From Liolophura sinensis (taxonomy: Eukaryota > Mollusca > Polyplacophora > Chitonida > Chitonidae): a stretch of 64,000 nt of DNA. The position numbers were made by a program, and so were the translations under genes. The stretch spans positions 5,080,373 through 5,144,372 of the forward strand of contig NC_088306.1 of the NCBI RefSeq assembly GCF_032854445.1. Reading direction: 5' to 3'. The notes below the pieces were generated by a model. It did no database searches. It saw nothing but the letters and a program-made list of their open reading frames with translations, and was not told where the DNA came from. Below are positions 5,113 to 64,000 of this stretch, piece by piece (the stretch's first letter is position 1; each line of letters begins with the position of its first letter).

Positions 5113-5528
5113 GCGTTACAGTTCTGAAGATTACACAATCCACAGTGTTACACAATCCACAACGTTTTACAGTTCAGAACGATACACACTTCACAATGAT
5201 ACGCAGTCTAAGACTTTACACAGTCCACGACGATACACAATCCCCAACAATGCTTAACGTTATATTTCGTAAGTATCTTGCTCCCTTACTGGTTAAGATA
5301 GTTAGAGGACACTGGTTCGTTGCCAGTAGGGAGTCGTTGATGGATGAAGTCACATGTTCTAATCCAGCTCTCCCCTTTTCGTCTACTTTTCTTAGTCGAG
5401 ACGTTTATTGTATAGCTGGTGAAGTTTAACAGTTTAATCCCAACACTTCCATTTCCTTCACCACAGAGAAAAGACCCTAAACATTGGTGTCAAGTTCATA
5501 ACGAATTCCGGTTATACCTTTCCCAGTT

Positions 5529-5638
5529 GCTCCAGTGGCTCAGTCGGTTAGCGCGCCGTACTTATAGACAGTACCTTCACCTTGTGTATCAAGGTTTGAG
5601 GAATGCGGAGGTCGTGAGTTCGATCCTCACCTGGAGCA
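5529..5638 (+). tRNA. tRNA-Ile(UAU) with 36-nt intron
   Basis: Acceptor strands GCTCCAG (5529-5535) and CTGGAGC (5631-5637) pair fully. The D arm has the GGCTCAGTCGGTTAGC A-box pattern. The anticodon stem CCGTA pairs with TGCGG (5604-5608), with one U-G pair. The loop is C-T-TAT-A, giving anticodon UAU at 5563-5565. The intron is 5567-5602, at the standard site between nucleotides 37 and 38; tRNA-Ile(UAU) is one of the intron-bearing tRNAs in animals. The T arm GTGAG/CTCAC carries a TTCGATC loop. A run of four T follows at about 5644, a possible pol III terminator. Best-preserved copy in the array. Confidence 0.88.
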
Positions 5639-5880
5639 ACATAATTTTGTTTTAGCCCTGGCCAGTCTGTTTGAGAGCACCTATGGTTGAACACAATTAT
5701 GGCTCCCGCTAACGGGAGGATGTCTGCCAGCCGTTGACCAGTGGTTACAGGTTCGAACTGATTACGCACCAGATCTAGATGGATTTCTAGTGCCGATTTT
5801 AGGAACCCGTTTTTAAGTAGCTCCAAGTTTTGACAAATGTCACAAAATTGGAACTCTAGAATACCAAAAAGCGTTACAGT

Positions 5881-6125
5881 GTCTAAAGTTCCACAATCCA
5901 CAGTGTTACACGATCCACAACATTACACAGTCCACAACGACACACACTTCACAATGATACACAGTCAAGGACGCTACACAGTCCACGACGATACACAATC
6001 CACAACGTTACAAAATCCACCAATTCACAGCCTTACAGGCCACAACGATACAAATCCACAACACTGGAAATCCACAACGTTACACAATCCACAGCAATCC
6101 ACTACGATACAAAATACTCAAATTT
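5881..6125 (+). repeat. 17-bp sub-repeats inside tRNA array unit
   Basis: Consecutive 17-mers follow the pattern ACACARTCCACRACGNT. The same kind of run recurs after most tRNA copies (about 3930-4090, 5130-5255, 6800-6940, 7090-7250, 7890-8010, 8180-8335, 8960-9100, 9650-9710). Open frames across these runs (for example rich in TVHNDT) are repeat artefacts. Confidence 0.75.
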
Positions 6126-6185
6126 AAACACTCAACAGCGTTGAACAATTCACAACGTTACACTCTGCTTAACGTTACAGTTCGA

Positions 6186-6300
6186 AAATCTCTTGGTGGT
6201 CTAGCGGTTAAGATGGTGAAAGGGCACTGCTTTGTTGCCACCAAGGTATCGTTGATAAATGAAGTCGCGTGTTCCCATCTAGCTCTCCCTGATTCATCTG
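6186..6300 (+). other. Second tRNA-like block of the array unit
   Basis: TGGTGGTCTAGCGGTTAAGA resembles a tRNA A-box region, and GTGTTCCCATC about 60 nt later is at B-box distance. Related blocks lie at about 4120, 5280, 7275 and 8360. No cloverleaf with an identifiable anticodon could be drawn, so this may be a decayed tRNA or a SINE head. Confidence 0.35.
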
Positions 6301-6446
6301 CTGTTTTAAGTCGAGAGGTTTATTATGTAGCTGGTGAAGTTCGACAATTAAATCCCAACACTCCCAATCCCGTCACCACAGAGAACAAAGGGCACTAAAC
6401 CTTGCTGTCATATTGATATGAAATTCTGCTTTCACATTTTCCACTT

Positions 6447-6556
6447 GCTCCAGTGGCTCAGTCGGTTAGCGCACCATACATATAGACAGTAACTTGACAT
6501 TGTAAATCAAATTTTGAGGAATGCGTAGGTCGTGAGTTCGTTCCTCACCTGGAGCA
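6447..6556 (+). pseudogene. tRNA-Ile(UAU)-like copy, mutated
   Basis: Same layout with intact acceptor stem and T stem. The anticodon stem is altered (ACCATACATATAG against ATGCGTAGG) and the T loop reads TTCGTTC. Function doubtful. Confidence 0.65.
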
Positions 6557-7532
6557 ACATAATTTTGTTGTAGTCATCGCCAGTCTTTCTGAGAGCATCT
6601 ATGGCTGAACAGAATTATGGTTCCCGCTAACGGGAGGATGTCCACTAGCCGTTGACCAATGATTACAGGTTCGAACTGATTACGCACCAGATCTAAATAG
6701 ATATCTAGTGCCGATTTTAGGAACCCGTTTTTAAGTAGCTCCAAGTTTTGACAAATGTCACAAAATTTGAACTCTAGAATACCAAAAACCGATACAGTTC
6801 TGACAATTACACAATCCACAACGTTTCACAGTCAACAACAATACACACTTCACAATAATACACAGTCTTTGACGCTACACACTCCCTGACGATACACAAT
6901 CCATAACATTACGAAACTAACAAGTTAACAGCGTTCCCACTAACGGGAGGATGTTCAGTAGACAAGGACCAGTGGCTACAGGTTCAAAAAGATTTGGAAA
7001 TGGATACGCACTACCTTTACCTGTGGATATATATCTAGTGCCGATTCCAAGAACTTGTTTAAATTAAGTCCAAGTTTTCACAAAAGTTTTTTACACAATT
7101 CACAAAGTTACACAATCCACAACGATACACACATCACACGGATGCACAGTCTAGAGCGCTTCACAGTCCACGACGCTACACAATCCATAACGTTACAAAA
7201 TCCACAAGTTCACAGCCTTACAGTCCACAACGATACAAATCTCCAACAATGCTTAACGTTACATTTCAAGAAAATGCTTTTGTCCCGTATTGGTTCAGAT
7301 GGTTAGAGGGCACTGGTTCGTTGTCACTAGGAGATTGCTGATAGATGAAGTCACATGTTCCAACCCAGTTCTCCCCGTTTCACCTGCGGTTTTAAATCGA
7401 GAGGTTTAGTGCGCAGCTGGTGAAGTTCGACTATTTAATCCCAGCACTCCCATTTCCTTCACCACAGAGAACAAAGGGCACTAAACCATGATGTTAATTT
7501 TACAAGAAATTCTGGTTTCACATTTTCCACTT

Positions 7533-7642
7533 GCTCCAGTGGCTCAGTCGGTTAGCGCGCCTTACTTATAGACAGTACCTTCACCTTGTGTAACAAGGTT
7601 TGAGGAAAGGGGAGGTCGTTGGTTTGATCCTCACTTGGAGAA
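7533..7642 (+). pseudogene. tRNA-Ile(UAU)-like copy, mutated
   Basis: The 5' half is well kept, but the 3' anticodon stem reads AGGGGAGG, the T stem is broken (GTTGGTTTGATCC) and the 3' acceptor strand ends TGGAGAA. Probably inactive. Confidence 0.7.
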
Positions 7643-8608
7643 AAACACTTTTGTTTCAGTCGTGGTCAGTCCGTTTGAGAGCATCTATGGCTGAACAAAA
7701 TTATGGCTCCCATTAACGGGAGGATGTCTACCAGCCGTTGACAACTGGTTACAGGTTCGTAATGATCTCGAACTGGTTACGCACCAGATGTGGATATCAA
7801 GTTTTGGAACCCGTTTTTAAGTAGGCCCAACTCTCGATAAATATTACAAAATGTCAGCTTTAGATTAACAAATAGCGTTACAGTTCTGAAGATTACACAA
7901 TCCATAATGTTACACAATCCAAAACGTTTTACAGTCCACAACGATACACAGTCTAGGACGCTGCACAGTCGACGATAATACACAGTCCCCAACGTTACAA
8001 AACCCACAAGTTTGCAGCGTTCCCACTAACGGGAGGATGTTCACTAGGCGACGACCAGTGGTTACAGGTTGGAAATGATCTCGAACTGGTTAGGCATCAC
8101 CTCTACGTGTGGACAGATATCTAGTGCCGATTCTGGGAACCCGTTGGGAATTAAGCCCAAGTTTTGACAAAAGTAATTTTTACACAATCCACAAAGTTAC
8201 ACAATCCAAAACGATACACACAGTGTTACACAATCCACAACGTTTTACAGTTCAGAACGATACACACTTCACAATGATACGCAGTCTAAGACGTTACACA
8301 GTCCACGACGATACACAATCCCCAACAATGCTTAACGTAATATTTCGAAAATATTTTGTTCTCTTACTGGTTAAGATAGTTAGAGGACACTGGTTCGTTG
8401 CCAGTAGGGAATCGTTGATGGATGAAGTCACATGTTCCAATCCAGCTCTCCCCGTTTTGTCTACTCTTCTTAGCCGAGACGTTTATTGTATAGCTGGTAA
8501 AGTTTAACAGTTTAATCCCAACACTCCCATTTCTTTCACCACAGAGAAAAAAAACCCTAAACATTGGTGTCAAGTTCATAACGAATTCCGGTTTTACATG
8601 TTCCAGTT

Positions 8609-8717
8609 GCGCCAGAGGCTCAGTCGGTTAGCGCGCCGTACTTATAGACAGTACCTTCACCTTGTTTATCAAGGTTTGAGGATGCGGAGGTCGTGAGTTC
8701 GATCCTCACCTGAAGCA
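8609..8717 (+). pseudogene. tRNA-Ile(UAU)-like copy, lightly mutated
   Basis: Close to the intact copy but with GCGCCAGAGG at the 5' end, CTGAAGCA at the 3' end, and one nucleotide lost before the 3' anticodon stem (GAGGATGCGG). The two acceptor changes create mismatches. Borderline pseudogene. Confidence 0.65.
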
Positions 8718-9290
8718 ACATACTTTTGTTTTAGTCCTGGTCAGTCTGTTTGAGAGCACCTATGGCTGAACACAATTATGGCTCACGCTTACGGGAGGAT
8801 GTCCACTAGCCGTTGACCAATGGTTACAGGTTCGAACTAATTACGCACCAGATCTAGATAGATATCTAGTGCCGATTTTAGGAACCCGTTTTTAAGTAGC
8901 TCCAAGTTTTGACAAATGTTACAAAACTGGAACTCTAGAATACCAAATAGCGTTACAGTGCTAAAGGTTCCACAATCCACAGTGTTACACGATCCACAAC
9001 ATTACACAGTCCACAACGACACACACATCACAATGATACACAGTCAAGGAAACTTCACAGTCCACGACGATACACAATCCACAACGTTACAAAATCAACA
9101 AGTTCATAACCTAATAGTCTAGAGGAATACAAGTCCCCAACAATGCTTAACGTTACATTAAAAAAAATGTTTGGTCTCTCACTGGTTAAACAGTTTAATC
9201 CCAACACTCCCATTTCCCTCACCACAGAGAAAAAACCCTTAAACATTGGTGTCAAGTTCATAACGAATTCCGGTTTTACCTTTCCCAGTT

Positions 9291-9400
9291 GCTCCAGTGG
9301 CTCAGTCGGTTAGCGCGCCGTACTTATAGACAGTACCTTCACCTTGTGTATCAAGGTTTGAGGAATGCGGAGGACGTGAGTTCGATCCTCACCTGGAGCA
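9291..9400 (+). tRNA. tRNA-Ile(UAU) with intron, near-intact copy
   Basis: Nearly identical to the copy at 5529-5638, with acceptor, D, anticodon and T stems intact, anticodon UAU and the same 36-nt intron. The only change noticed is in the variable loop (AGGAC instead of AGGTC). A T-rich stretch (ACTTTTG) follows as a possible pol III terminator. Likely functional on sequence grounds. Confidence 0.82.
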
Positions 9401-9819
9401 ACATACTTTTGTTTTATCATGGTCAATCTATTTCAGAGCATCAATGGCTGAACAGAATTATGGCTCCCGCTAACGGGAGGATGTCCACTAGCCGTTGACC
9501 AGTGTTTACAGGTTCGAACTGATTACGCACCAGATGTAGATAGATATCTAGTGCCGATTTTAGGAACCCGTTTTTAAGTAGGTCCACGTTTGACAAATGT
9601 CACAAAATTTGAACTCTAGAATACCAAATAGCGTTATAGTGCTAAGGGTTCCACAATCCACAGTGTTACACAGTCCAGAGTGATACACACTTTACAATGA
9701 TACAGATTCTAGGACGCCAGAGGATATGGCGGACATTTTGCTGACGCGCGGTTAGTCCATGATAATGACTATGTTCACTGTGGTTATCTCACTCCGTTCT
9801 CTTGCAGGAGCTGGGAACT

Positions 9820-30700: not shown

Positions 30701-33700
30701 ATATGCCCGTTTTCTATCATTCTTAAAAAATGACATCAGTCACAAGAGTGATCTATGCTTTCAAACTGCTCAATGCTCCTAGCCAATTAAATAAATACTA
30801 GATAAATTTCTCGCTTAAACTACAAAAGGATCCTCGGCAAAGAGAGCCTGAAAAAAACACACAAAAAAAGGCTTTGTCCATTTCATGCATTCTGGCATGA
30901 AGGAGCGGTTGGTGACAGACTAACAGCAGGCAGCTGGTGAACAGTGCAGTACAGACACACAGACACAAACACTACCTCTGTGAAACACAACACAAATTAC
31001 ATGGGTGAGTATTAAGCCCAGCCCACACGCACAACATTTGTCGACAAAAAAAAAACAAACAAAAAAGGAGGATATTCAGGACCAGAAGTCACATGTTCCA
31101 CAATATCAATTTGCCACACAAAGGCAACATTTGTTGTCCTTTTTGAAAATTCCCCCAAAGAAACAAGGTCATAGTTTCAAGGCCTACCATTTTATCAGAC
31201 CGTTTTGTCTATACTCACCTAGCATTACCATTGACAGACTCTGATATTGCTTGATGAAGGCAACACAATCTCCCCAAACCAAATTGTCAGCACAAAGGCC
31301 AAATCTATTTCCTGATCATTTCTTTCTGGACTTTCTGTCACCGAAAATTAATCAATCTTTGGATCCAGTTCTCCAGAGTCAGGAATTCTTATTTAGGTTT
31401 AAAGCCTGCACATGTTGAGGGTTTTTTTTTTTCTTGCTGGGGTTCTGTTTTCTAAAATAAATGTTGTCTGTATGCGCTGGGATTTAGTCAAGACAGAGAG
31501 GGGTGTATACTCACATGATCCCACTGTATGCCTCGTTTTGGCACTGTTACAGTATGCCTCTATCACACCCAGTATGGCAGCATCCTCTTCAAATGTTCGG
31601 GGGTCATCTGCAATTCACACAGGATTAAAATAACCAGTGATTATTATATCAGCCCGTTACAGAATTAATTCTTAATTCATATAAGTGTCAAAAACATTCA
31701 CCAGATGTCATGTTACATAAATATCTGATTTATTTTATTTATTTGTTTGTTCTAAAGTGTTTAATGCAGAGCTAACTTCAGAAGAATTGTTAACTTTAAA
31801 TTTTACAGCGGTAAGTTGTTCATGCATGTTACGAGCGGAGGAAATGTGCCTGATGTCCATTTCACAAAATGTAACATGTACGTAAAGTCTCATGGCAACC
31901 AGTACTGGTGGTATTTTACCAGGGCCACATCTAGTCCCAGTTCAGTTCCCAAAAGAGCATTAGGCACACAAACTAATCAAGCTGTAACAAAACCAACAAC
32001 AACAACAACAACAGAAATATGATGGTTTACCCATAAAGAGCTGAAATACAAATTTCTTTCACTCCCACTTAGAAGCTCCCAGAAAGCATATGTTTTGAGT
32101 TGTATTTTATAAAAGTTCTTTCAATATCACCTTTAAAGTCTGGGATCAGAACCTTCAATTTCTTTCTAGAACTGTTTCCTGATGACGGCAATATGTTAGC
32201 TACATGTACATGTATGTACAATACATTCACTCTGTGAATCAGGCCTGACAAATCACTCTGTGGTGAAGGGGGCCAGTGCTCTACTGAAGGAGCCTGTTTC
32301 ACAAAGTGATTTGTCAGGCTTGTGGTGAAGGGGACCAGTGCTTTACTGCAGGAGCTTGCCTCACAATGTGATTTGTCAGGCTTGTGATGAAGGGGGCGAG
32401 TGCTCTACTGCAGGAGCCCGATTCACACAGTGCAGGAATTTCTCTACTGCTCTACTGAAGGAGCCTACTGTACTTTCTGTTTGAAACAGGCTCCTGCAGT
32501 AAAGCACTGGCCCCCTTCACCACAAGCCTGACAAATCACTTTGTGAAACAGCCTCCTGCAGTAAAGCACTGGTCCCCTTCACCACAAGCCTGACAAGTCA
32601 CTTTGTGAAACAGCCTCCTGCAGTAAAGCACTGGTCCCTTTCACTACAAGCTTGACAAATCACTTTGTGAAACAGGCTCCTGCAGTAAAGCACTGGTCCC
32701 CTTCACCACAAGCCTGACAAATCACTTTGTGAAACAGCCTCCTGCAGTAAAGCACTGGTCCGCTTCACCACAAGCCTGACAAATCACTTTGTGAAACAGC
32801 CTCCTGCAGTAAAGCACTGGTCCCCTTCACCACAAGCCTGACAAATCACTTTGTGAAACAGCCTCCTGCAGTAAAGCACTGGTCCCCTTCACCACAAGCC
32901 TGACAAACCACTTTGTGAAACAACCTCCTGCAGTAAAGCACTGGCCCCCTTCACCACAAGCCTGACAAATCACTTTGTGAAACAGGCTTCTGCAGTAGAG
33001 CACTGGCCCCCTTCACCACAAGCCTGATAAGTCACTTTGTGAAACAGGCTTCTGCAGTAAAGCACTGGCCCCCTTCACTACAAGCCTGATAAGTCACTTT
33101 GTGAAACAGGCTCCTGCAGTACAGCACTGGCCCCCTTCACCACAAGCCTGATAAGTCACTTTGTGAAACAGGCTCCTGCAGTAAAGCACAATGAAAACCA
33201 TTCAATTTCTGCTTAGAGACCATCCCCAAACTGCATTGCTCACAATTGCATCACAGTAATTCTCAATATTTATGTTTATTTATAGTCAACATAAACGAGT
33301 GTTTCTGAACACTGTATATAAGGCCTTTACCATTGCCAGTGTAGAACAGCTATACTACCACACTATGATTCAGATATGCATAGATGGATTTTCATTTGAT
33401 TTACTGGTTTATTTTTTTGATTGGTGTATTACGCCGTATTCAAGAGTATTTCACTTATACGACAACGGCCAGCATTATGGTGGGTGGTAACCGGGCAGAG
33501 CCCGGGGGAAACCCACAGCCATCCATCTGCTGACAGACCTTTCCACGTACAGCCGAAGAGGATACTTCACTTGAAAAAAACATTTTAACTGTTTGCAAGC
33601 AAACGAATACTGAGAAACAACACCTCAATGCAAGACAAATAAAATACATGGGTATTAAACCACAATATCACAATATGAAAATATATAAATAAAACACAAA

Positions 33701-36700
33701 GACTACTTCTTTCCATGATAACAAATTATACAAAAAACATGAAATGCAAATATAATGTATAATGTAGCATGATCCTTTTGTACCCTTTTCAACTGCGATT
33801 TCTTAAAAATTTATTAGTGAGATCTAACAGTCTTGGTGTGTGCAGTTGCAGTTTTATTTATTTATTTATTTAATTGGTGTTAAATACGCTGTACTCAAGA
33901 ATCAGTTACCATTTTGAAGCTGTGACTATCTTTGTTATTTACATATGAAAGCTTTCCTGTGTACAGCTGTATGTTTTACCGCTTCCTGTCAATGGGTGTT
34001 GTGGTAACGTTACTGTTACAACATGAAGCAATAAATGACACGGTTTGGCGTTAAGGCAAATTTTTGTGGATTTTTCTGAGCACAAGAAAAAAAAAAATGG
34101 AATATCAAGAGACAACTGAAAAAATAGAGATCCACTGTGGGCCACACATGTACAATATCAATTTCAAACAAGGAAGGGCCTCTGTGGCCGACGTGGTTTG
34201 CGTGCCAGAGCGGTGCAATGACCCAGGAGCCTTTCACCAATGTGGTCACTGTGAGTTTCAAGCCCAGCTCATGCTGGTTTCCTCTCCAGCCGCATGTAGG
34301 TCGGCCAGCTATCTGCGGATAGTTGTGGAGTTCACCCCAGACTTTGCCTGGTTTCCTCCCATCATAATGCTGGCCAACGCTGTACAAGAGAAATATTCTT
34401 GAGTACGGTGTAAAACATCAATCAAATAAATAAACAAATAAATCAAACAGGAAAATGTATATACAAGTACGTGTACCTGCTTGAATGGGCTCTTATGCAA
34501 GGAAATCAAACCTTAGGAAAATGGTAAAATTCCACACCATTCCATCACAGTTTTGCATGTTTATGTTTTTTTCTTGATACATGTAAGTCCCCCTGAAGGA
34601 CACAACAAAACCTTCTGTGCTTACACAGATGTACTTCACTTCACAGAATGTGAGCAATTGCCACCAAATAAACACAATAGCACATGGTGGAAACAAAAAT
34701 AGCAAAACGACAACCAAAAAAAAAGGATGAATGCAAGATGAGAGAAGAGATGGATTCTGGGTAAACTCTTACAGCGTCTCCAGATATAGTCATACTCAGC
34801 CTCCCCGTCCTTATCTGACAGCAGGTAAGAGATCACAGATAAGAAACACAGGTAAAATGTAATTAAGGTAGCACAGGTAAGAAATCACAGGCTGGTTACA
34901 ATCATCCTTTAGTGGCAGTTCAACAAAGCAGCATCAATACCAAACGATTCAAACTTGCCGTGATTTAAAAGACAACACTACAATACAAAATGCTAATATA
35001 GGTACTGTATGTGTTTATATAAGTACAAGATTTCACACAAACTTTAAAAAACATACATTTTTATTTCTGAGACTTTGCCAAACCACCCACACGGAGAAAG
35101 TCTAGTTTGCCACCATGGTATATAAGATTTAATCACTCAGGTGCACATTAATTCTACATCCCGAATATGGAGCTGTTTAGGTTTTTAATACATACCCTAA
35201 ATGACCACAAACTTTCTCCATCACTACAAACTTGCCCATTTTTCCAGATTCTGAGAGTGCTATTGATCTCAAAATGGTGTTTTGAGGTTTCCAACCCTCA
35301 TCCGAAATAAAGGAGGTTAGATTATTTGTTGTCTTTTCTTTCAAAACAAATAAACATCAGCTTGGGTGCAACTTGGTTAGCCAAACATCTATATTTCAGA
35401 ACTAACGTCACCTTGCACTCTCAAACTAATTAAAAACATACAGCACATCAACTGAAAATTAGGTTGAAATCAGTTAGTAAGGTAAAAGCTAAAAAAAAAA
35501 ATGACAAGCTGCAGAATAGGTTTCTGACAGTCATTCTTACTATCATCACTCAACAGCAAGGCCACATCCTAATTAGTTTATTAGTAATATGATACCCAAT
35601 ACTAACTAAACATGGTATAATCACCGCATGATTACCGCTCCAAGAGCTACCCTGATTCCTCAACCTTTTCGCATATAAAAGTGCAATTTTCAGAGGAATT
35701 TTCGCACCTTTTTAACATGATACTGAAGACAAAACTGCATTCACTGGGTTGGTCAATCTCAGGGCTTTGCAAAAGGTATAGTTATGCGAGTCTGCACAGA
35801 AAAATGCCTTCAGAGTATGCTTAAATCGATACCTTACAAACAAGAGAAAGGGCTGCAGAATTATGGTGTACCTTTTTAATTTTCTTACAGCACACGTAAG
35901 TTTTTAGCTTCTCTTACTCACCCATTTTACGCCGCATGTTGCAGTTCTTGCGGTGCAGGTCGTCTCTGTTCACTGTGGGCCTGAGGGGAGGGGCGGGTCT
36001 TAGGCAGGACATGCTCCATGTGTTGAAGATCTTATGGTGAAATGACGCTGGCAGCGTGTGGGAGATGTGGGTGTTATGAGGGGCAGGGTGTGGGGAGAGG
36101 GTTGGGTGGGACGTGTGGGTGTGGGGTGTCTGGTGGGTGGGAGGTGGTGGGTGGGAAGACGGGGGAGGGGGCACTTGTCCAATCACTTTGGCTGTCTGGC
36201 TAGGGGCTGGCATCACCTGGCTTATACTGGGCTGACATGAAGTTATCTGGGAACAAAGATCAGTTTTCAACTTTTGAAAGAAATTTATTTTTTTCCTGTA
36301 AATTTTCAGGCTTTGTGGCCAAGACATGTACATGTAAGAGCTCACTTGTAAAAGTTTTCAGGTTTTGTGACCAATGAGTAAAAACTCACCTGTAAGTTTT
36401 CAGGTTTTGTGACCAATGTGTAAGAACTCACTTGTAAAAGTTTTCAGGTTTTGTGACCAATGTGTAAGAACTCACTTGTAAAAGTTTTCAGGTTTTGTGA
36501 CCAATGTGTAAGAACTCACCTGTAAGTTTTCAGGTTTTGGGGACAACATTGTATGCAAGCGCGTTATGGATTCCTTCAATATTTCCAGCCAATCAGTGGC
36601 TTCCTTCTGGGTACCACAGGTCACTGTCATTTTGTCCACCTGATCACCTGCAGATTAAGAAACAGTTGGGCGACCCATAAGGTGAGTGAAACAGGGGCCG

Positions 36701-39700
36701 GTTTCTAGGCTAAGCCCTTAGCTAAGTGCACTTTATATCTTTCCAACATACTTTCTCATGGTAGTAAAGAGCTTACTTAGGTTAGTGAGCTTCATGAAGC
36801 CGGGCCCAGAAATCATAACTGAAATTGGTTAATACCAAATCTATCACCCCATTACACATATACATAAAAACGAATACTGTACATGTATTTTTACCTAAAA
36901 GTTGGAACTGGTAAGTAAAAATGAACTTTCAGAAGTACATAAAGGCCTTAAAAATTAACCATTTTTTGTGCTAAAACTTAAGTTTTTCTTATAAGAAACT
37001 AATCATACTTCACAGAAAAATCATAAATTGCTCTATAAAATTGATGAATTCATAAGATTCAAACAAAATGTATCATTTGAAAAATGCAAAATTTTTAGGT
37101 GAACTACAGCAGATGCACAGATGTACAGGCTTGAAATAAGACTTAAAAGACATTACCTGCTACCAGTGTATACACAATAGATATGAAATGTAAAATATTA
37201 ACTTTGTGGATTTGATTTTTTCCAGATTTACAGGAAATGGCTTTTAATTAATTGCTCCTGTGATTAATTACAAAGATGGTGGCTTCTTCATTGGTAAAAT
37301 TCAAAGAATGTGTTTATCTATCTGACTAGCGTTTATTGCCACACTCAAGAATGTGTTTATCTATCTAGCATTTATTGCCACACTCAAGAATGTGTTTATC
37401 TATCTGACTAGCATTTATTGCCACACTCAAGAATGTGTTTATCCATCTGACTAGCGTTTATTGCCACACTCAAGAATGTGTTTATCTATCTGACTAGCAT
37501 TTATTGCCACACTCAAGAATGTGTTTATCTATCTGACTAGCATTTATTGCCACACTCAAGAATGTGTTTATCTATCTGACTAGCATTTATTGCCACACTC
37601 AAGAATGTGTTTATCTATCTGACTAGCATTTATTGCCACACTCAAGAATGTATTTATCTATCTGACTAGCCTTTATTGCCATACTCATGTGACAGTGAAC
37701 TGGTTTATGGGCGGAGGAAATCTGAACGCCCATCACCAGGGTCAGGTTCCATAAAAACATTTCTGGCTTACATTGTAAGTCCATATTTGAAAGACAATCT
37801 TAAAGCTTATTTTTCAGTTTTAGATATCAAAATTCTGTCCACGTTATCACTACTATTTGACTTGTCCAAAATTAAACTTCTAGAACCATAACGTAAGCAC
37901 TGTGGAGAGGTTTTTAAGTTTGACTGGAGTCAGAATTGGTGGAATTGGCCCCTGGTACCTGGCAAATCTCCTGGCTTAATGATGCAAATCTCCTGACTTA
38001 ATGATGCAAATCTCCTGACTTAATGACATAGTCAAACAAGAGGAAGCTAGGTTCAAACCATCTCACTGGTCATGGTCCTGACAGTCACAGAGAGTTTGAA
38101 CTTTGACCCCTTGAGAACTAATGTCACCTTGCACTCTCACACGAATTAAAAACGTACAGCACATCGACTGAAAACTAGGCTGAAATATTAGATCAGTTAG
38201 TAAAGTAAAAACTAAAAAAAATGGCAAGCTGCAGAATAATTTTCTTTCTTTTTAGTCTGACCCTTTAAGACAGTTATCTGTCTACAAAGATAGTGACTGG
38301 AATGGCATATGGATGACAAATGTTGTCCAAGGACATGAGAGCTAGGTTATATAAACACCTGAGTACTGACCTGCTGGCTCCTGGAGGATCCTGGCCCCAC
38401 AAGGCGACATTAGACTTCAGTCACAATTTCAAATATCTAACTTGTTCCCTTCCATATATAGCCGAAATTTTGTTTTACAATAACTTTCCCAGAATTTATG
38501 TTGTCAAATTACGTAAGAAATAACAATTCTAAAGTGACTGAAATTTTGACTTAAGCCTATGAAAGATTGTTTTTTGACCCCAGGGGCTGGATTTTATCAA
38601 GTTCTAATAGTTAGACTGACGGGTGAAACAAACCTGAAATCTCCAGAGAATGTGGAAATGCCTCTGTGTCTTCACACGCTGACACAGTCATTCCACTCAG
38701 TGGGATTTTACCCTACAAACACATAAAGTCAATCAATCCATTTATTTATTTATTTATTTTTTGACCCATTTTTATGCTCTACTGTATAATATTTGTCTTG
38801 TATGACTGCTGTCAAGTTTATGTGAGGAGCGAAACAAGATGAATCTCAAAGAAATAAACAAATTGATAAAAAAATAAGAAATATAATAATTAATATAATA
38901 ATTTAAAATAAAACCAAACCACTTTATTGACACAAGCTGCAACTCTGGATTCTAATCCAAAATCGCTTTGCTTTTACTGGGTCACATTGTATCACAAACT
39001 AACCATGCATTAACTCTCCGGCTGGATGTGGGAAGGTCTGCCAGCAACCTGCGGATGGTCGTGGGTTTCCCCCGGACTCTGCCCGGTTTCCACCCACCAT
39101 AATGCGGGTCGCCATCGTATAAGAGAAATATTCTTGAGAACGGCGTAAAACATCAATCAAATAAATAAATAAATCAAACATGCATTAATTAGAGTAGGAT
39201 TCACTTGGAGTCACTTGTAACACAAAAACAAATACCCCTACAGTTGTAAGAGAGAGATTGTGTTTCTACAGGAATTGACACACAGGCCCACAGGTTCACC
39301 AACCTTGAAAATAAAGTAGGTCAAGGTCAGTGAAAAACAACAGGGTTCTTCTCCATAACTAGATGCACATAAGGTACAAATCTGATGAAAATTCCTCAGA
39401 GTTAAAGAGATGTTGTGTTTACAACACCTGTCACGAGGTAGAACTTCAATGACCCAAATGACCTTGATCTTTTTACCACTTTTAATACTACGGCCATAGA
39501 AACAGAAAAGCTTCGTCTCAATACCTATCCAAAAAGTTTGGTAAACCTGACAACAAATGATCAAGAGAAGGGGTGGTAATAAATCAACGGCCAGACTGAA
39601 AAACATTTGAACACCAGCACTCTGTTGACCAATTTGTTGTTACCATGGTAACATTACCTCATAATGGTAGCCACTAAGCCGAGGACTTATAGATAACATG

Positions 39701-42700
39701 ACCAGCAGGTTAGGGAACAAGACGAGGATTCTCTCAAACTTCTCCCCCATCTGGGTCAGCACTTTGACTTTGGATATATGTACAACCTCCCCAAGTGTGG
39801 AGATCTCCTAGGGGAAGAAAATTAAGAAATCAGCATTATACTGTTACAATTACATAGAGTCGAAGAATGGATGAATGATGTGGGTTTCATTAAAGCCACA
39901 TCAGCAGTATTTAAGCCAGATTCTGGAGAAACATAAAGGAATGTGTTTATACATCTGCTTATGTGCTTGTTTTCCTCCACCGTGACCTTTTGACTTAAGT
40001 TACGTGTATTTATATGGGGCAATAATTAGATTTACGTGTGGAGGATATTTACTTGTGACCATTTGACTTAAGTTACGTGTATTTATATGGGGGCAGTAAT
40101 TGGATTTACGTGTGGAGGATATTTACTTGTGACCATTTGACTGAAGTTACGTGTATTTATATGGGGCAGTAATTGGATTTACGTGTGGAGAATATTTACT
40201 TGTGACCATTTGACTTAAGTTACGTGTATTTATATGGGGCAGTAACTGGATTTACTTGTGAAGGATATTTACTTGTGACCATTTGACTTAAGTTACGTGT
40301 ATTTATATGGGGCAGTAATTGGATTTACGTGTGGAGGATATTTACTTGTAAACCACATTATCCCGCATCAGACAGAAATCCAGCAAGTCCAGACAGAAAT
40401 AAACTAACTGAACTCATAACAAATGCGGCATTGATCGATACCAAACTTGTTCGTTCTCTCAATTTAAGAGCTAAACATAGCATACAGTTAAAACAGAACT
40501 TTTACACGATACTTTCAGCACCACGAATGGCTAATTCACACTTTTAGTACAGCTTTTGGTGAGAACTTACATCATCTCCAGTTGTCCAGGAATGCGGTTA
40601 CGATTTTACATTTTCAATGACACTGATAAACTTTGTCGAGAACAGGAAACTAGCTCACCTTTTTACTGGCTTGAAAGATGCGAATGATAGGACCATTCTC
40701 TACTACTTTCCTCGTCACCACACCTGCCTTATCAGGTAAGCCAACTGAAGATACGTCGCGTCATGTTTATAGCTAGAGTGTAGGCACAGGCTACAGTCAT
40801 GTAAAACTGTCTATACGAGACTACATGTACCAGGCGATCAAGATCTACGTAAGATGTGATCAGGATGGTGCCAACATCCGCACATGGGCCGCCCATCCGT
40901 GTTGGATCCACCCCACATCCGATCAAGATGTGTGTACATGTAGGTTGATGATACACAGAGTATATCATTAGGATTGGGCAGTACTGTACACTGACATCTG
41001 TCTTTACAAGTCTGAACTAACATCAACTTCATTGCTTCTAAACAAGAAACGGAAGTTGACACTGACACTGGTCTTTTACAAGGTTGAATTTATATCAACT
41101 TTAACGCTCCAAGACAAGAAAAAAAAAAAGATGATTAGTTTATACTTACTTCTCCCTCCCAGTTTATTATAGGACTATTTATTATCTCATATTCCATTTC
41201 TTTCAGTTTTCTTATTTCAACACAGGAATTCTGCAAACAAAATAACACATAACACACATATAACAATTTCACAGGTTAGTCAGTGTATTTGTGACAGCAA
41301 GGGTTGTTGCCATGGAGACCATGATCACAAATTATCATGGTCATATGAACAGAACTCTTCAATTTTTGGAAACATGCAAACTCACCATAGAAAACGATGA
41401 AAGTGTTGCCCTTAGACAGGTCTTCCACAATTCCCTGAATGCACATATGGTTTACATGGACATCACACATTTGAAATTGCTGACTGCTAAAAAGGAGTAA
41501 CTCGACATGTTTCCAACAATTCCCAACATACATGTATTAAAGCGTATAGACAAACTTGGCCTGAACAACTCACAGCAATTCACATTTAGATAGTTCTATA
41601 GATAGCTGTAGAGTACAATGTACACGTAAACCTGACAAACTTGGCCTGAGCTACTCACAGAAATTTGTCTGTAGATAGTTCAACAGATAGCTGTAGAGTA
41701 CAATGTACACGTAGGCCTGAAAAACTTGGCCTGAACAACTCACAGCAATTCACGTTTAGGTAGTTATATTAACAGCTGTAGAGTACAATGTGCACGTAAG
41801 CCTGACAAACTTGGCCTGAGCTACTCACAGCAATTTGCCTGTAGATAGTTCAACAGATAGCTGTAGAGTACAATGTACACGTAAGCCTGACAAACTTGGC
41901 CTTAGCTACTCAGCAATTTGCCCTTAGATAGTTCAACAGATAGCTGAAGAGTACAATGTACACGTAAGCCTGACAAACTTGGCCTGAGCTACTCACAACA
42001 ATTTGCCTGTAGATAGTTCTATAGATAGCTGTAGAGTACAATGTGCACGTAAGCCTGACAAACTTGGCCTGAGCTACTCACAGCAATTTGCCTGTAGATA
42101 GTTCTATAGATAGCTATAGAGTACAATGTACACGTAAGCCTGAAAAACTTGGCCCAAACTACTGACACCAATTTGCCTGTAGATAGTTTTATTGATAGTT
42201 GTAGAGTACAATGTACACATAAGCCTGAACTACTCACAGCAATTTGCCTGTAGATAGTGATAGCTCGTTGTGTGTCCCCCCTGTCAATGTGACTCTCCTG
42301 CAACATAACAAAGAAAACAAAGTATTATTTATTCATACGATTGTTGTTCAGCCCGTATTTTTCACCTATACAATGGGAAGTTACTGACACTGACAAGTAC
42401 TTTGGCACTTGTGACAATGACCACACTGGCAACCAAGGGTCAGTTTTAGTGCTCCGATTCGGCTCTCCTCCCCAAACATTGTTGTTTTGACAGCTATCTC
42501 TGTTTACATTAAAGATGCAGCATGCAACAATACTTAATTTCCAGACTGATTATTGGGGCTTTAAGGAAACTGTGTTTTGGAGCCATTGTAACACCCCAAG
42601 AAGAGAATTTTTGTTTATTTATTTATTTGATTGGTGTTTTACGCCGTACTCAAGAATATTTCACTTGTATGACGGCGGCCAGCGTTATGGTGGGAGGAAA

Positions 42701-45700
42701 CCGGGCAGAACCCGGAGGAAACCCACGACCACCCGCAGGTTGCCGACAGACCTTCCCACGCACGGCGGGAGAGGAAGCCTTCATGGAGAAACTTTGTTGT
42801 ACTTCTATATGTTACATCACATCACATACTTCACCTTAAGAAATAAAAACCACACTTTTTCATGTATGCTTTAACCACTTAGCTACAGCCTGCTGTGTAC
42901 AAACGAACAAGCAATTCTGACTTCCCAACAAAGCTGGATGAGCTGGACAAACTGGTCAGCACTGGTCACTGATAGTGACCGATACCTACATGTATACTGT
43001 TAGGTGAAATGATTGGTTGTCTCCACTCACCTCTATGTGTCTCTCTAGCTCCTTCAGTAAGCTGGGGTACTTTTCCAGGCGTGTGAGGGGTCTGGACAAA
43101 CTTGTTGTCAAAGTCATAGACCCTGGGGCAGGGGCCCCCAAATTTTCCATAGCACTGTTGAGTTCCTCACTGTAAACATTTCCAAAAGGTGAAATTCAGC
43201 CAGTGGGACAATTTAACTCCCAAGTCACAAGCAAGCTCAGCTCTGCCTGTACTTTTACATTTTTTTTTAGGTTAGAGTAAATTACACACTTTTCAAGTGA
43301 CAACATTTGGATTGACTCCCACTGATTTGTCCACTATTAGAAAGCCACACAGAAGGATTTCTGGAAAACTTAATCAACTTCTTTGCCCCAAAATTTCAGT
43401 GTTGACATCAAAACTGCCCTTTTAAGACCTTTACATTGTCATGGATGTGTCGTGCATCTGTAGGTGTACTTTTACACACCAAACTTTTGGTGAAATACAT
43501 TATTTTAAAAAAGGAAAAAATGCATGAATAATATTATAATTCTCTTCAATATTTTACCTGTACAAATTTTTTTTTAATTTTTCACCTTTATAACACAAAA
43601 ACAGTTTGCTGAGGTGTGGTGCATGGTGCATGTCCTGTGTCCCGTCTACCTACACCACTGTGTGAACACTTACCATTTCCTCTGGAGCCCAGCCATGGCC
43701 CTGGGGTGGTTAGCACAGTATTCCTCATACAGCTCTATAAGGTGAGGTGCATGTCCTGTGTACCGTCTACCTACACCACTGTGTGAACACTTACCATTTC
43801 CTCTGGAGCACAGCCACGGCCCTGGGGTGGTTAGCACAGTATTCCTCATACAGCTCTACAAGGTGAGGTGCTTGTCCTGTGTACCGTCTACCTACACCAC
43901 TGTGTGAACACTTACCATTTCCTCTGGAGCACAGCCACGGCCCTGGGGTGGATAGCACAGTATTCCTCATACAGATCTATTAGGTGAGGTGCATGTGCTG
44001 TGTACCCTCTACCTACACCACTGTGTGAACACTTACCATTTCCTCTGGAGCACAGCCACGGCCCTGGGGTGGTTAGCACAGTATTCCTCATACAGATCTA
44101 TAAGGTGAGGTGCATGTCCTGTGTACCGTCTACCTACACCACAGTGTGAACACTTACCATTTCCTCTGGAGCACAGCCACGGCCCTGGGGTGGTTAGCAC
44201 AGTATTCCTCATACAGATCTATAAGGCGAGGTGCATGTCCTGTGTACCGTCTACCTACACCACAGTGTGAACACTTACCATTTCCTCTGGAGCACAGCCA
44301 CGGCCCTGGGGTGGATAGCACAGTATTCCTCATACAGATCTATTAGGCGAGGTGCATGTGCTGTGTACCCTCTACCTACACCACTGTGTGAACACTTACC
44401 ATTTCCTCTGGAGCACAGCCACGGCCCTGGGGTGGATAGCACAGTATTCCTCATACAGATCTATTAGGCGAGGTGCATGTGCTGTGTACCCTCTACCTAC
44501 ACCACTGTGTGAACACTTACCATTTCCTCTGGAGCACAGCCACAGCCCTGGGGTGGTTAGCACAGTATTCCTCATACAGCTCTATAAGGTGAGGTGCATG
44601 TCCTGTGTACCGTCTACCTACACCACTGTGTGAACACTTACCATTTCCTCTGGAGCACAGCCACAGCCCTGGGGTGGATAGCACAGTATTCCTCATACAG
44701 CTCTATAAGGCGAGGCGCATGCCCTGTGTACCGTCTACCTACACCACTGTGTGAACACTTACCATTTCCTCTGGAGCACAGCCACGGCCCTGGGGTGGTT
44801 AGTACAGTATTCCTCATACAGCTCTATAAGGCGAGGTGCATGTGCTGTGTACCCCTTACCTACAGCACTGTGTGAACACTTACCATTTCCTCTGGAGCAC
44901 AGCCACAGCCCTGGGGTGGATAGCACAGTATTCCTCATACAGATCTATAAGGCAAGGTGCATATCCTGTGTACCCCTTACCTACACCACTGTGTGAACAC
45001 TTACCATTTCCTCTGGAGCACAGCACAGCCCTGGGGTGGATAGCACAGTATTCCTCACACAGATCTATAAGGCAAGGTGCATATCCTGTGTACCCCTTAC
45101 CTACACCACTGTGTGAACACTTACCATTTCCTCTGGAGCACAGCCACGTACCTGGGGTGGTTAGCACAGTATTCCTCATACAGCTCTATAAGGTGAGGTG
45201 CATGTGCTGTGTACCCCTTACCTACACCACTGTGTGAACACTTACCATTTCCTCTGGAGCACAGCCATGGCCCTGGGGTGGTTAGCACAGTATTCCTCAT
45301 ACAGCTCTATAAGGCAAGGTGCATATCCTGTGTACCCCTTACCTACACCACTGTGTGAACACTTACCATTTCCTCTGGAGCACAGCCATGGCCCTGGGGT
45401 GGACAGCACAGTATTCCTCATACAGCTCTATAAGGCGAGGTGCATGTCCTGTGTACCGTCTACCTACACCACTGTGTGAACACTTACCATTTCCTCTGGA
45501 GCACAGCCACGGCCCTGGGGTGGTTAGCACAGTATTCCTCATACAGCTCTTTAAGGCGTGGTGCGTGTCTCATGAACACCTCCCCCACTCGTCGCTGATG
45601 ATGAGGGGACCTGACAGAAATAGTTGATAAAGCAGCAAAATGTCAGAGGGTAGTACCACTTTTGTAGGGAAATGCAGAAAAACTTGCATTCATTGATTTC

Positions 45701-45750: not shown

Positions 45751-48700
45751 TTTCCAACTTCACAATGAATCAAACAAACCAACTGTGTCAAGTACATGTA
45801 TCCTATTGCTTTCCAACTTTATCCAAAGTCTTGCCTTATTTTGTGTTGAAATGTCACCTAATAAATGAAAAGGTCTGTTAAATTTTTAAGACCTAGTCTT
45901 TTCTTTCGATGATTACATGGATCACACTCATGGATTTGTTCATTTCGTCAGGTTTTGGTACAGAGGACAATCCAGTTTAAGACAAGAGAATTAATAATGT
46001 CGTCATGTCAACCATGACATTTTTTTTATAAACAATTCATCACGGCATCAGTTTTCTTTTCCCTCTGTCACACAAAGCAACCATGGCACTTCCCTAACAT
46101 TAGTTACTGCCATCTCACTCCCAGGCTACATGCTTTAGGGCTATTAGCCTCCGTTCTTGGGTGAAACTTACCGTGGCATTCCTTCAAAGACATCAGGAAG
46201 CTTCCTTGGAAAGTCACTATGTCTTCCAAATTTCCGACCAGCTGATTAAACTCAGATGGATCAAGTCTGCAGAAAGAAATCAGAAGTTGGATTATTGATG
46301 TGTTTGATTGCAACTTTCACAACAGTCTACTCAGAGGAATATTTCACTCATTACATTATGTGATGGCCTTAAGATTCCACGGAAGGTGAAACTGGGTAGA
46401 GCCGTGGAGCAAATCACCGACCTTCATCAACCTCTTGACCACAGATAACATACATTCAAACCATCTGGAATCAATAACAAAAGAATTTTATGATCTTTCC
46501 TGGAGTTTGCCTTTCAGAACGGGCACTGGGACATAGCGAACATCGCATAAATAGAGATTACAGCATTACTGTGAGTGCATGTCGTCTATATAAAAAAACA
46601 AAATAAATAAAATACAAGGTTCCATCAGCCAATCATGAACATGTACATTGTTACTACTCATAGTTCTAATGGATGGATTTATTTATTTATTTCACTGGTG
46701 TTTTACGCCGTACTCAAGAATATTTCTCTTACACAACGGCAGCCAGCATCACACTCTGCTGTATTGGAACATCACTATGCAACATTTTTAGGATGTACTA
46801 GAATTTAGAGGTAGCCACATGATGAGTTCCCAGAAGCAGAAATTTGCTTAAAACTTTTAAGCAAGGTGATCAAGGTGAATAAAATCTGGTATCTGAAAAG
46901 GTCTACCAGGCAAAATATACCAGCGGAAAAGGCAGAGGCACAAGATTACATTAATCACACCAGGCCTCGGCATCACAAAGCTATCTCAGACTTCAAAAAT
47001 TAAAAAAAGTTATTTCTGATGTACCCAAGTCAAAATATTGCCTGACAACAAAAATTCTGGGTAAGTTATTGTACAATAAATTTCAGCTAAAACAACGGAA
47101 AGGAACATACCAAATTTAATGATTTAAATTTCGGTTCAAGTCTAAGATTGTTTGGTGACCCCGAGGCCAGGTCCTTGTTATTGTACAGAAAAACTGTCAG
47201 GCTATCGTAAAAATATAACTGTGTGGGAAAACCAAACCTCCAAAACAGTGCCCTAGTTTTAAGTTTTTATTGAGATTTCTCTTGTTTTTTTGTTTGTTTC
47301 TTCTTTCTGACAATGTTTAATAATTTCTTTAAAAACCTAATCTCTTTCATTATACAACAAAAAAAAAGGGGGGAGAATTCCCATCTGATCAACCTTATTT
47401 ATTTATTTGCATGTATTTGATTCATGTTTTACACCGTACTCAAGAATATTTCACTAATACGAACACGGCCAACATTATGGTGGGAGGAAACCGAACAGAG
47501 CCCAGAGGGAACGAAACCCACGACCGTCACATTGCTGGCAGAAGTTCCCATGTATTGCTGGACAGGAAGTCAGCATGAGTTGGACTTGACTCACAGGGAC
47601 CTTATTTTCTTTGGGCATGTTCAAGTTATGCTCAGAAAAAGATTATGAAAGATGGCCTTAGGGAACAAGTGAAAAAATACACTGCATTAGACAGAAGATG
47701 TCCTCTATCTGCTACCAAAATATCATACCTAAACATTTGTCAATGCCATGCTGGTAAGGTCATATATATGTAGAGAACTTTTCAAACCTACTGGATAGCC
47801 TTGGATATAATATTACATCGGTCTTCATACTTACACTCCAGAGGCTTTGATTGGCCGTATATATTTTTGTAACAAAGTTTTCATTTCATTGACATGAGTT
47901 CCTTCTGTCTCTATCACACTTTGTAAAACCTGGAAATAGGAAAACAACTATACATGAGCAGGTATTAGACTGACTGATATGAATGGCATGTTTCTGAATA
48001 TTTCATCCACAGGTCTGTGACAACCAGTTACTCTTCTTTGGACAACTCCTTAGATAATTACTGCATAATAATTATTTCTGTAAGAAAATCTGCTGCACAA
48101 TTCACATATTCAAGAAAGGCAGATTTTTCTCATAAGAAAACATAGGTTCATTTCTGACAGTGCTATTGTATACTGTTTACTTCACTATGCTGTACGTGCA
48201 CTCGTAGAAGTGAAATACGCTGTATTCTTGAGAATGGCATAAAACACCAATCGAACAAATAAATAAATAAACTATTCCGTATGTGCAAGCCTGAGACAGC
48301 ATTTAATGTGAATATAAAACTCTTTACAATGCAGTCTAAACCAGCCCGTGTACTGTTAAAATCTATCACTAACTGCTCCCGATATATGCATATATAATTG
48401 TCCAATGAACTAGTTACCTTTAGGGACATTGAATGCTCCCTGCCTTGCACAATCTAGGTATCTGGAGCATGTCTGTTTAGTGTGTGTTTACCGGTGTGGG
48501 AGAGATAATAAGCCACACAGATTCTGTAGAATTCTCAGGCTTTAGAACAACTGCACAGAGAGCCACTCTTCAGGTATTGTTCATCTTTGGTTTATATTAC
48601 ATTTGACACAGTTCAAATATATACTTTTTTGACACGTTTATTGGTTTTCAAGTATGTTTTCAAGTGTCTATTTCTGTGTAGTTTTCACACCGCTGTCTTT

Positions 48701-61558: not shown

Positions 61559-64000
61559 ACCAGAAATGCGGCAGAGTACAACAAAACACATTGCATCAGA
61601 TGCATACATAAAATTAGAGAACATTGGTAAAGAAAGCGTGGATGTTATGCCGATATGAGGCTCCCTGGCAGGAACAGAAACCCCAGATGGCTTATTTTAT
61701 CCCGTTTAGGAGTTGACGTGAGAGGTACAGTTTATCAAAATAGGAGCTGAGGGTAATATATGGGTATTTGATAAATATCGGACTAGAGAAAATTGTAAAC
61801 AGAGCAATCGGAATTCATGACACAACATGTTAGTAAGGCGAGGTTGAAGCAAAAATTGCATGCGTATTTATACGTTTATATAATGAAAGATATGCGTCAT
61901 TTAACTGAGGATACAGGTAGTGGTAATTAAGATACTGGACCTAAGAGTGACAATACTTACCATGTGAATCTACATTAACGTATTTACATTTGAATGGAAG
62001 CGACTGAAGGACACTTAGTCTGGCTGACGGTAAGTAATGAAATAGCACTTTAACCTGGATTTAAAAAGAGAAACAGAATCACGGTATTTTAAGTCAGAGG
62101 GCAACTTATTCCATTCTATGGGACCTTTTATCTTACAAGTCTAGAAAATCATTGGTTTTATGGAAAGGCCTCTGTAAGTTGACTGACGAAGTCGTATGGG
62201 GTAAAAATGAACTGATGATTGTTTGATAAAATAAGAACTGAAGCTGAAGGGGACAAGATCAGGACTGTGTAAGCACTTAAAAATTAACTGGGTTGTTTGA
62301 AATACGTTAACAGATTCAATCGACAATGTTTTGTTTTGCTTAAAGAATGGGCCAGTATGATCATGATTGTGGGAAAAATTTGTCAGTGGAACAGCACGTT
62401 TTGAAGGTGTATCAGGGGGAGGAGGTGGGTGGTGTAAGTATTACCTCACACTACGTTGCAATATGTTTGTATGGGATAAATAAGGGCATAATAAAGAATA
62501 TATAATGTTTTCTTCTTCAGAAAATATCTAATATGAGAGAGAGCACCTAGATTACGTGAAATTTTCTTGCAAATTTCGCTGATATGTGTCGTCCATGTCA
62601 ATTTATGGTTAATAGTTACTCCAAGAAGATTGAAAGATGTTAGATATTCGATTTCCTGTTGCTTTACATTAATATGAGGTTGGAAATGTGTGTTATTTTT
62701 TCTGTTTGGTGTGATAAACATAGATTTGGTTTTCTTAATATTCAAAGAAAATTTGTTACCACACAACCATCAATAAAGCTTATCGAATTCTTAGTTTATT
62801 TTTTTATTTTATAGTACAGGATCGGAGTCAGATAGAAAGGCACTCGTGTCATCGGCAAACAGGGTAATTTCAAGGTTAGATGCATAGACGATATCGTTAA
62901 TATAAATTAAAACAAAGCAGAGGATCAAGAATAGAACGTTGTGGAACTCCAGTGTTTTTGGCGTTTGAATGAAGATTCGATGTTGTTATAAAGTAAACAG
63001 TGTCTCCGGTTAAAGAGGCAACATTTATTGAATAGGCCAGTAACACCATAATGTTTTAGTTTTTCTAAGATGATAATATGACCGAATGTGTCGAATGCTT
63101 TGACTAGGTCAAGAAAAAGAGAAATGCTAAATTTATTTGATTCTTTGGCTTTTACGAGTTTATCATAGACGCAAATCAAAGCATGCATCGTAGAATGGTT
63201 GCTCCTGACGCCATACTGATTTTCGAAAAGCACTTTGTTCGTTTCAAATAAATATATTTTAATACTTTAAATATATTTTTAGTTTATCGGCTACTAATGA
63301 TTCAAATATCTTACTGAAAAAAAGGCAATAGGAAAAGAGGTCTGTAATTACTATGTCATCCATGCCCCCTGCTTTAAAAAATGGGCAGATTTTGGCGACT
63401 TTTGACTTATCTGGAAAAATTCCAGTTAGAAACAACAAGTTAACCATATGGGTCAATGGATGAGCCAAGGAATCAGCTGCCATTTTAATAACAGAGGGAT
63501 GAAAGCCATCTAATCCAAGGGAACTTTTTTTGAATCTCCTAACTAATTCACGAACTTCTTCATATGTACAAAGGCCTAGTGAAAAACTTGGGGGATTGAT
63601 CGGTGGAAGGGAGCTTCTACAGCAATTTGAGGCAAGCGGTATTTCGGATCCTACTTTACTAGGGATGTCATTAAATATGTGTTAAAACCATCCGCAATTT
63701 TTTTCCGGATCAGTTACTCTATCACCATCAATGGTGAACGACTTCGGCAGTTTCTCATTATTTTGTTTTTATTAAATTATTTATTAATTTCCACGTTCCC
63801 TTTATGCTGTTATTTACAGAATTAAATTTCTGGTCGAAATAATACTTTTTCGCTGAGCGTAATATGTGGTCCAGTTTATTTCTATATTTCCGGTATAAAT
63901 CTTTTATTTCTTTGCTGCTATTCTCTCTAAATGAGCTACGTACGGCTGGAGTAATTTTGACCTACTAGAATTTCTGTCAATATTTTAGAGGGGAACGTTT
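61559..64000 (-). mobile_element. Jockey/CR1-like non-LTR retrotransposon, decayed, 5' part outside window
   Basis: Minus-strand RT pieces in order: 63483-63259 (upstream RT, GIFPDKSKVAKICPFFK), 63233-62925 (NQYGVRSNHSTMHAL and LFLDLVKAFDTFGH, RT domains 2-3), the catalytic FADDTSAFLSD at about 62859-62825, then 62766-62446 (LNIKKTKSMF, LGVTINHKLTW, LYYALIYPIQTYCN, domains 6-9). Frameshifts and stops between pieces make it inactive. It ends at a TAAA/TAA tail. The family call rests on the FADDT and KAFDT motifs and the thumb segment. Confidence 0.8.
62446..63483 (-). pseudogene. Reverse transcriptase remnant
   Basis: RT core of the LINE at 61559-64000, broken into at least four frames. It keeps the first catalytic Asp (LDLVKAFD) and the FADD pair. 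The product would not be translatable as one chain. Confidence 0.75.

Follow-up and report, generated by a model that had tools for sequence, protein, structure and literature searches.

Why should three coding exons of one gene each have their 3′ end, together with its 5′ splice site (donor), repeated in tandem into the following intron, and which of the many donors would then be used in splicing? The question is raised by a 64,000-nucleotide stretch of the genome of the chiton Liolophura sinensis (a species name changed from Liolophura japonica; PMC12441733). This stretch, called the window below, is C12:5080373-5144372 of the assembly (contig NC_088306.1, forward strand) and contains a PIX (ARHGEF6/7-type) gene on its minus strand. 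The 5′ end of the gene is outside the mapped part and the exon numbers are those of an earlier reader of the sequence. The three PIX arrays are mirage-type minisatellites, a known but little-studied kind of repeat; their copy numbers and lengths are taken from one assembly.

The 121-bp array covers the donor of exon 6, part of the DH domain (45488..45610, minus strand; homology, acceptor tttctgtcag, first donor gtaagt at 45487). It extends over 43625..45569 of the minus strand, for which Tandem Repeats Finder (TRF) gave a period of 121, 16.1 copies and 95% matches. The exon end AAATG|gtaagt occurs 16 times, each 121 or 120 bp from the next, and ATG|GTAAGT is identical at all 16 donors. Upstream of the donor the copies resemble the exon for ∼80 bp and, less closely, up to ∼110 bp; no position in the 71 bp adjoining the donor sets the exon apart from all copies. 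Exon 8 (42238..42297, minus strand; splice sites and homology to 1by1, the structure of the PIX DH domain) ends in AATTGCT|gtgagt with its first donor at 42237. Its 85-bp array occupies 41549..42260 of the same strand, TRF having reported 41549-42228 (period 85, 8.0 copies, 87%) and the exon part having been added. Eight donor matches, seven GTGAGT and one GTCAGT, follow each other at steps of 71, 85, 85, 168, 85, 85 and 85 bp, and a donor-less copy inside the 168-bp step makes nine copies in all, which are like the exon for 20-25 bp upstream of the donor. The 42-44-bp array at 36296..36541, again on the minus strand, lies over the donor of exon 12 (36520..36647, minus strand; splice sites and open frame; first donor at 36519), an exon for which no Pfam match at E≤0.01 was found. 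TRF reported 36333-36539 (period 44, 4.8 copies, 91%), to which a degenerate last copy and the exon part were added. The exon end AACTTACAG|gtgagt is present in six copies at steps of 42-52 bp (mostly 42-44), five of them with a donor (CAG|GTGAGT twice, CAA|GTGAGT twice and CAA|GTGAGC once). About 20 bp of exon are shared by these copies as judged by eye, the identity profile being broken by a 2-base indel.

The original prediction that one gene has three independent arrays, each containing a coding-exon 3′ end and donor, with 16, 9 and 5-6 copies and periods of 121, 85 and 42-44 bp, was thus borne out by TRF and exon mapping; 16, 9 and 6 copies were found, the last with five donors. It had also stated that the units share no sequence. 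When they were aligned in pairs and compared with 200 shuffles, the scores were reached by 2, 19 and 109 shuffles; the 121/85 pair is marginal, and by this comparison the three units appear to be essentially unrelated. That the other minisatellites of the gene contain no exon sequence could be upheld in part: GTRAGT on the gene's strand is absent from all 12 further arrays, with exon mapping incomplete from 12.5 to 36 kb.

The mapped exons 5-9 are genuine, judging by homology. Together they matched 1by1 at E=1.6e-45 over 155 residues without a gap, and Pfam RhoGEF at 7.2e-28. These DH exons run from 46266 down to 41150 on the minus strand and include exon 5 (46172..46266; splice sites and 1by1 homology), exon 7 (43031..43169) and exon 9 (41150..41230; splice sites, frame and 1by1 homology), all minus. 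At its consensus donor exon 5 (46172-46266) is one frame off exon 6 (45488-45610), and X was for this reason entered for the junction codon in both homology queries. The offset could come from a weaker donor four bases on, from an assembly error or from a different acceptor. Elsewhere on the minus strand, the gene has an SH3 reading frame at 51122-50886 (Pfam SH3_2, 2e-13). Pieces of the betaPIX coiled coil lie near 14.8 kb (E=0.0082) and 12.8 kb (E=1.5e-5), each short of the Pfam curated cut-off.

Joined through their first donors, exons 6-9 make one open frame. The three arrays have 26 later donors (15, 7 and 4). When the exon was extended to each of these and joined to the next exon, a stop was met from 25 of them; at exon 6 an in-frame TAA follows the first donor immediately, and of the donors tested none but the first puts exon 7 in frame with exon 6. 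Donor 3 of exon 8 (42082) is the exception, adding 156 nt in frame with no stop. Given that nearly all later donors bring stops, it is the first donor that fits the PIX protein. The gap-free match of exons 6-9 to 1by1 means that exon sequence has been neither gained nor lost, and the first donors, which place the true boundary at the edge of the cluster, yield the conserved reading. At exon 12 the sole support is the open frame from the first donor into exon 13. The reading frame thus favours splicing from the first donor.

The original prediction knew of no described class of repeat of this sort, but one had already been published: ‘mirages’, tandem repeats over exon-intron boundaries of amphioxus genes, reported in Adh3 and the globins BflGb6 and BflGb9 (PMC3087553) and in troponin C and PGBD5 (PMC3902484). 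Amphioxus mirages resemble the chiton arrays in having a minisatellite-like unit repeated head to tail across a genuine exon-intron boundary, an authentic boundary at the cluster edge and several affected genes in one genome. Their unit of 10-160 bp lies on the donor side (BflGb9) or the acceptor side (BflGb6), and in the chiton both sides are likewise found. The chiton differs in the host, in the three independent arrays of one gene, in copy number (up to 16 in PIX, at least 33 donor copies at locus L039, below) and in the basis for regular splicing, which in amphioxus was reverse transcription PCR (PMC3087553) whereas here it is the frame. Human segmental duplications also contain minisatellites at exon-intron boundaries, and these are able to make new introns (PMC2812944). 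The human repeats go with recent paralogs and with new introns or alternative splicing, whereas the chiton arrays involve no paralogs and have no known effect on splicing. Intron gain by tandem duplication likewise crosses an intron-exon boundary, but there one duplication produced a new intron, while the chiton copies are contained in an intron that was already present, with no sign of a new one. What is apparently new is the mollusc host and the many genes of one genome; no mollusc report of boundary arrays was found in the literature searched, whose coverage left most subscription journals outside.

The explanation preferred here, to which a probability of roughly 0.7 is given, is that ordinary minisatellites grew by chance over exon boundaries and were tolerated through use of the first donor. 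A short direct duplication would happen to span the boundary and would be enlarged by ordinary minisatellite turnover, probably slippage or unequal exchange, in what is a minisatellite-rich genome. The surviving arrays would be those on the intron side, because exon and first donor must stay intact. The spliceosome would take the exon-proximal donor by exon definition and the remaining copies would be removed as intron.

Chance growth was set against counts of donor arrays in the assembly. An array was defined as a distinct locus with three exact copies of a motif in the period classes 29-59 or 74-104, and long-class entries whose period was a multiple of a shorter one were discarded. Single occurrences genome-wide numbered 9,807 for the donor 9-mer CAGGTAAGT, 4,854 for its reversed form TGAATGGAC and 9,838 for a shuffle of the same composition, AGTGACATG. 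The donor 9-mer formed 10 arrays on C1 and 4 on C2 in the short class, and 10 and 1 in the long class. For the reversed motif the corresponding numbers were 6 and 0, and 1 and 1; the shuffle, counted on C1 up to 95.36 Mb, gave 7 short-class arrays and 1 long-class array. Controls without splice function form arrays too, 7 (reversed) and 8 (shuffle) on C1.

The sequence around 28 donor-array loci was read, namely the 25 of C1 and C2, L039 on C3, and L018 and L019, which were drawn from the list of single sites (L019 has two copies only; a further locus, L015, lies within the L039 array). By eye, 15 of the 25 arrays on C1 and C2 are at coding-exon donors, five of them backed by Pfam. Across all 28 loci the exon ending at the first donor was above the Pfam curated cut-off at six: GH31 (L007, 7e-13), MH2 (L014, 8.9e-11), DNA-PKcs CC5 (L030, 1.3e-15), Peptidase_M2 (L034, 4.7e-25), EGF_2 (L037, 1.6e-4) and DAGK_acc of a diacylglycerol kinase (L039, C3:23274200-23276700, 3.6e-9). 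The array at L039 has a 44-bp unit with at least 33 copies of CAGGTAAGT in the stretch read and extends past it. In these Pfam-backed arrays unit and exon overlap by ∼6 to 77 bp. Weak PDB matches accompany two more exon donors, to Polycystin-2 at L003 (E=0.041) and to the kinase TTK at L032 (E=0.02). Three others, L008, L009 and L033, had no Pfam match at E≤0.01 and no PDB match at E≤0.1; they are putatively the aldolase DERA, a Sec7/BIG-type protein and SelO. At L005, L013, L016 and L035 an open frame and acceptor were seen by eye with no database match, and no evident exon was seen at L001, L002, L004, L006, L010, L011, L012, L017, L018, L019 and L038. Pfam was run on 20 of the 28 loci, leaving out L001, L002, L004, L011, L012, L018, L036 and L038. 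L035 (C1:91519000-91521000) and L036 (C1:91586700-91588600) are near-identical, ∼68 kb apart and have the same donor array, which must therefore have been copied with, or be older than, the duplication.

A rule confined to donors was rejected on account of arrays at acceptors. At L021 the unit extends across the acceptor into the beginning of an AhpC-TSA_2 exon (Pfam 2e-6), and at L031, one of the 28 loci above, the array covers an acceptor in a photolyase gene (FAD domain, 1.5e-12) on the strand opposite the donor motif. The acceptor motif TTTTACAGG formed 14 arrays on C1 and C2; ten were fetched (L020-L029), the other four being one 27-bp-type family on C2, and nine of the ten had no exon by eye, L021 alone being a Pfam-backed acceptor. 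Since TTTTACAGG is not more frequent than its reverse (12,205 against 12,293 single occurrences) it marks few real acceptors, and the frequencies of donor and acceptor arrays are not comparable from it.

Several results weigh against growth by chance. The donor motif exceeded the two controls on C1 twofold, which is beyond pure random seeding (20 arrays per 9,807 occurrences against 15 per 14,692; ratio 2.0, 1.02-3.9; one-sided p=0.03). In the long class on C1 the counts were 10 and 2 (p=0.003), or 9 and 2 (p=0.006) with the near-copies L035 and L036 taken as one, the split by period being post hoc. Pfam-backed exons at the curated cut-off were found at 6 of the 28 array sites but at none of 39 isolated CAGGTAAGT sites of C1 (p=0.004). 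If 15 arrays were placed at random in 39 kb with a presumed 15-22 donors, 0.28-0.41 units covering a donor would be expected, so that three in one gene are improbable (P(≥3)=0.003-0.008), though this is post hoc and the one gene was chosen by a reader; counting acceptors also, the equally post hoc value is 0.02-0.05. First-donor splicing is predicted from the reading frame, and human boundary repeats are reported to change splicing (PMC2812944), so that harmlessness is not guaranteed.

The first three of these results are what would be expected if exon 3′ ends, by a step in GC content, a nucleosome edge or co-transcriptional structure, seeded tandem duplications more often than other sequence. 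This is considered unlikely, although more arrays favour it: 13 of 20 on C1 are exon donors by eye (12 with L035/L036 once) against 4.6 expected if 46% of sites were real donors, P(≥12)=0.003. Against the reversed motif alone on C1 and C2, the excess was 25 to 8 arrays (ratio 1.55, 0.70-3.4; one-sided p=0.19); the conclusion of no enrichment at all, taken from this control, was weakened by the second. In the short class on C1 the excess was absent (10 against 13, p=0.44). Composition may itself cause the donor excess because exons are richer in GC than the background (46.8% for six listed exons together, 37.6% for the gene background) and the units of the control arrays, at 40-53%, are likewise GC-rich. 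The Pfam contrast fell to 6 of 28 against 3 of 39 (p=0.10) when all matches at E≤0.01 were taken, the weak matches being at the isolated sites L061, L052 and L053. Frames were trimmed by eye at array exons and untrimmed at isolated sites, of which 35 went through Pfam, mostly as the longest frame only, and four had no 20-residue frame; the exon calls were not blind. Pfam is also insensitive on short exons, the isolated site L062 being real by PDB (CNOT6L, E=5.8e-21) with no Pfam match. Nucleation at donors, as originally predicted, thus keeps the twofold excess on C1 but not the comparison with the reversed motif alone, and arrays exist at acceptors; the preference is weakly supported, a hint. 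Isolated sites of the donor motif numbered 40 in 3.8 Mb and those of the reversed motif 50 in 8.8 Mb, which if the latter are background would make ∼46% of the former real donors and give 0.85-2.7% of such donors an array, a rough figure from 4 Pfam-backed to 13 by-eye exon arrays on C1. It is doubtful that exon 3′ ends are birth hot spots of minisatellites, with ∼1-3% of CAGGTAAGT donors carrying an array and splicing routinely picking the first of many identical donors.

A selected splicing device, in which the extra donors would be U1 decoys or would control intron retention or isoform choice, is a good deal less probable than chance growth tolerated by first-donor use. The invariant donor of the 16 exon 6 copies and the in-frame exon 8 donor 3 agree with it, but young copies would be identical without need of selection, donors are altered or lost among the exon 8 and exon 12 copies, nearly all later donors lead to a stop and unrelated genes carry arrays of unrelated units. 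An assembly artefact is very improbable: the PacBio HiFi depth was just 14x (PMC11068029), but the mean read of 8,347 bp is longer than each array (largest 1.95 kb), the copies differ among themselves and many other loci have similar arrays. Hardly credible are tandem duplicated exons spliced in series, since although TAG precedes the repeated exon piece in 12 exon-6 copies, the three of the 12 that were measured are 61 nt and would shift the frame, for which exon-6 copies as cassette exons were rejected, and the PIX of other animals has one copy here.

Other repeats were observed in the window. Two arrays of one 62-bp unit in opposite orientation, 32259-32432 and 32482-33189, lie 49 bp apart, and with 158 of 174 bases equal to the reverse complement they may form a long hairpin within the PIX gene. 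Short arrays of a related 17-bp unit, with a consensus like TACACAATCCACAACGA, are numerous at 5132-9689, beyond the known PIX exons. An element with a terminal AAATAAATAAAT tail at 42620-42800, presumably similar to a short interspersed nuclear element, has similar sequences elsewhere in the window and in L011, L020 and L039. Minus-strand frames at 62449-63961 resemble pieces of reverse transcriptase by eye.

Arrays of this kind are apparently recurrent in the genome of this chiton, and any function for them would be hypothetical. They provide natural genes in which one splice site competes with many copies of itself, and exon 6, with sixteen donors of the same nine bases and one acceptor, is a natural test of spliceosome choice among equal 5′ splice sites. 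For annotation they are a trap, the introns holding multiplied exon fragments and donors. Introns might be lengthened, or new ones formed, from such material. Since lancelet and chiton both have boundary minisatellites, other invertebrate genomes rich in minisatellites may have them as well.

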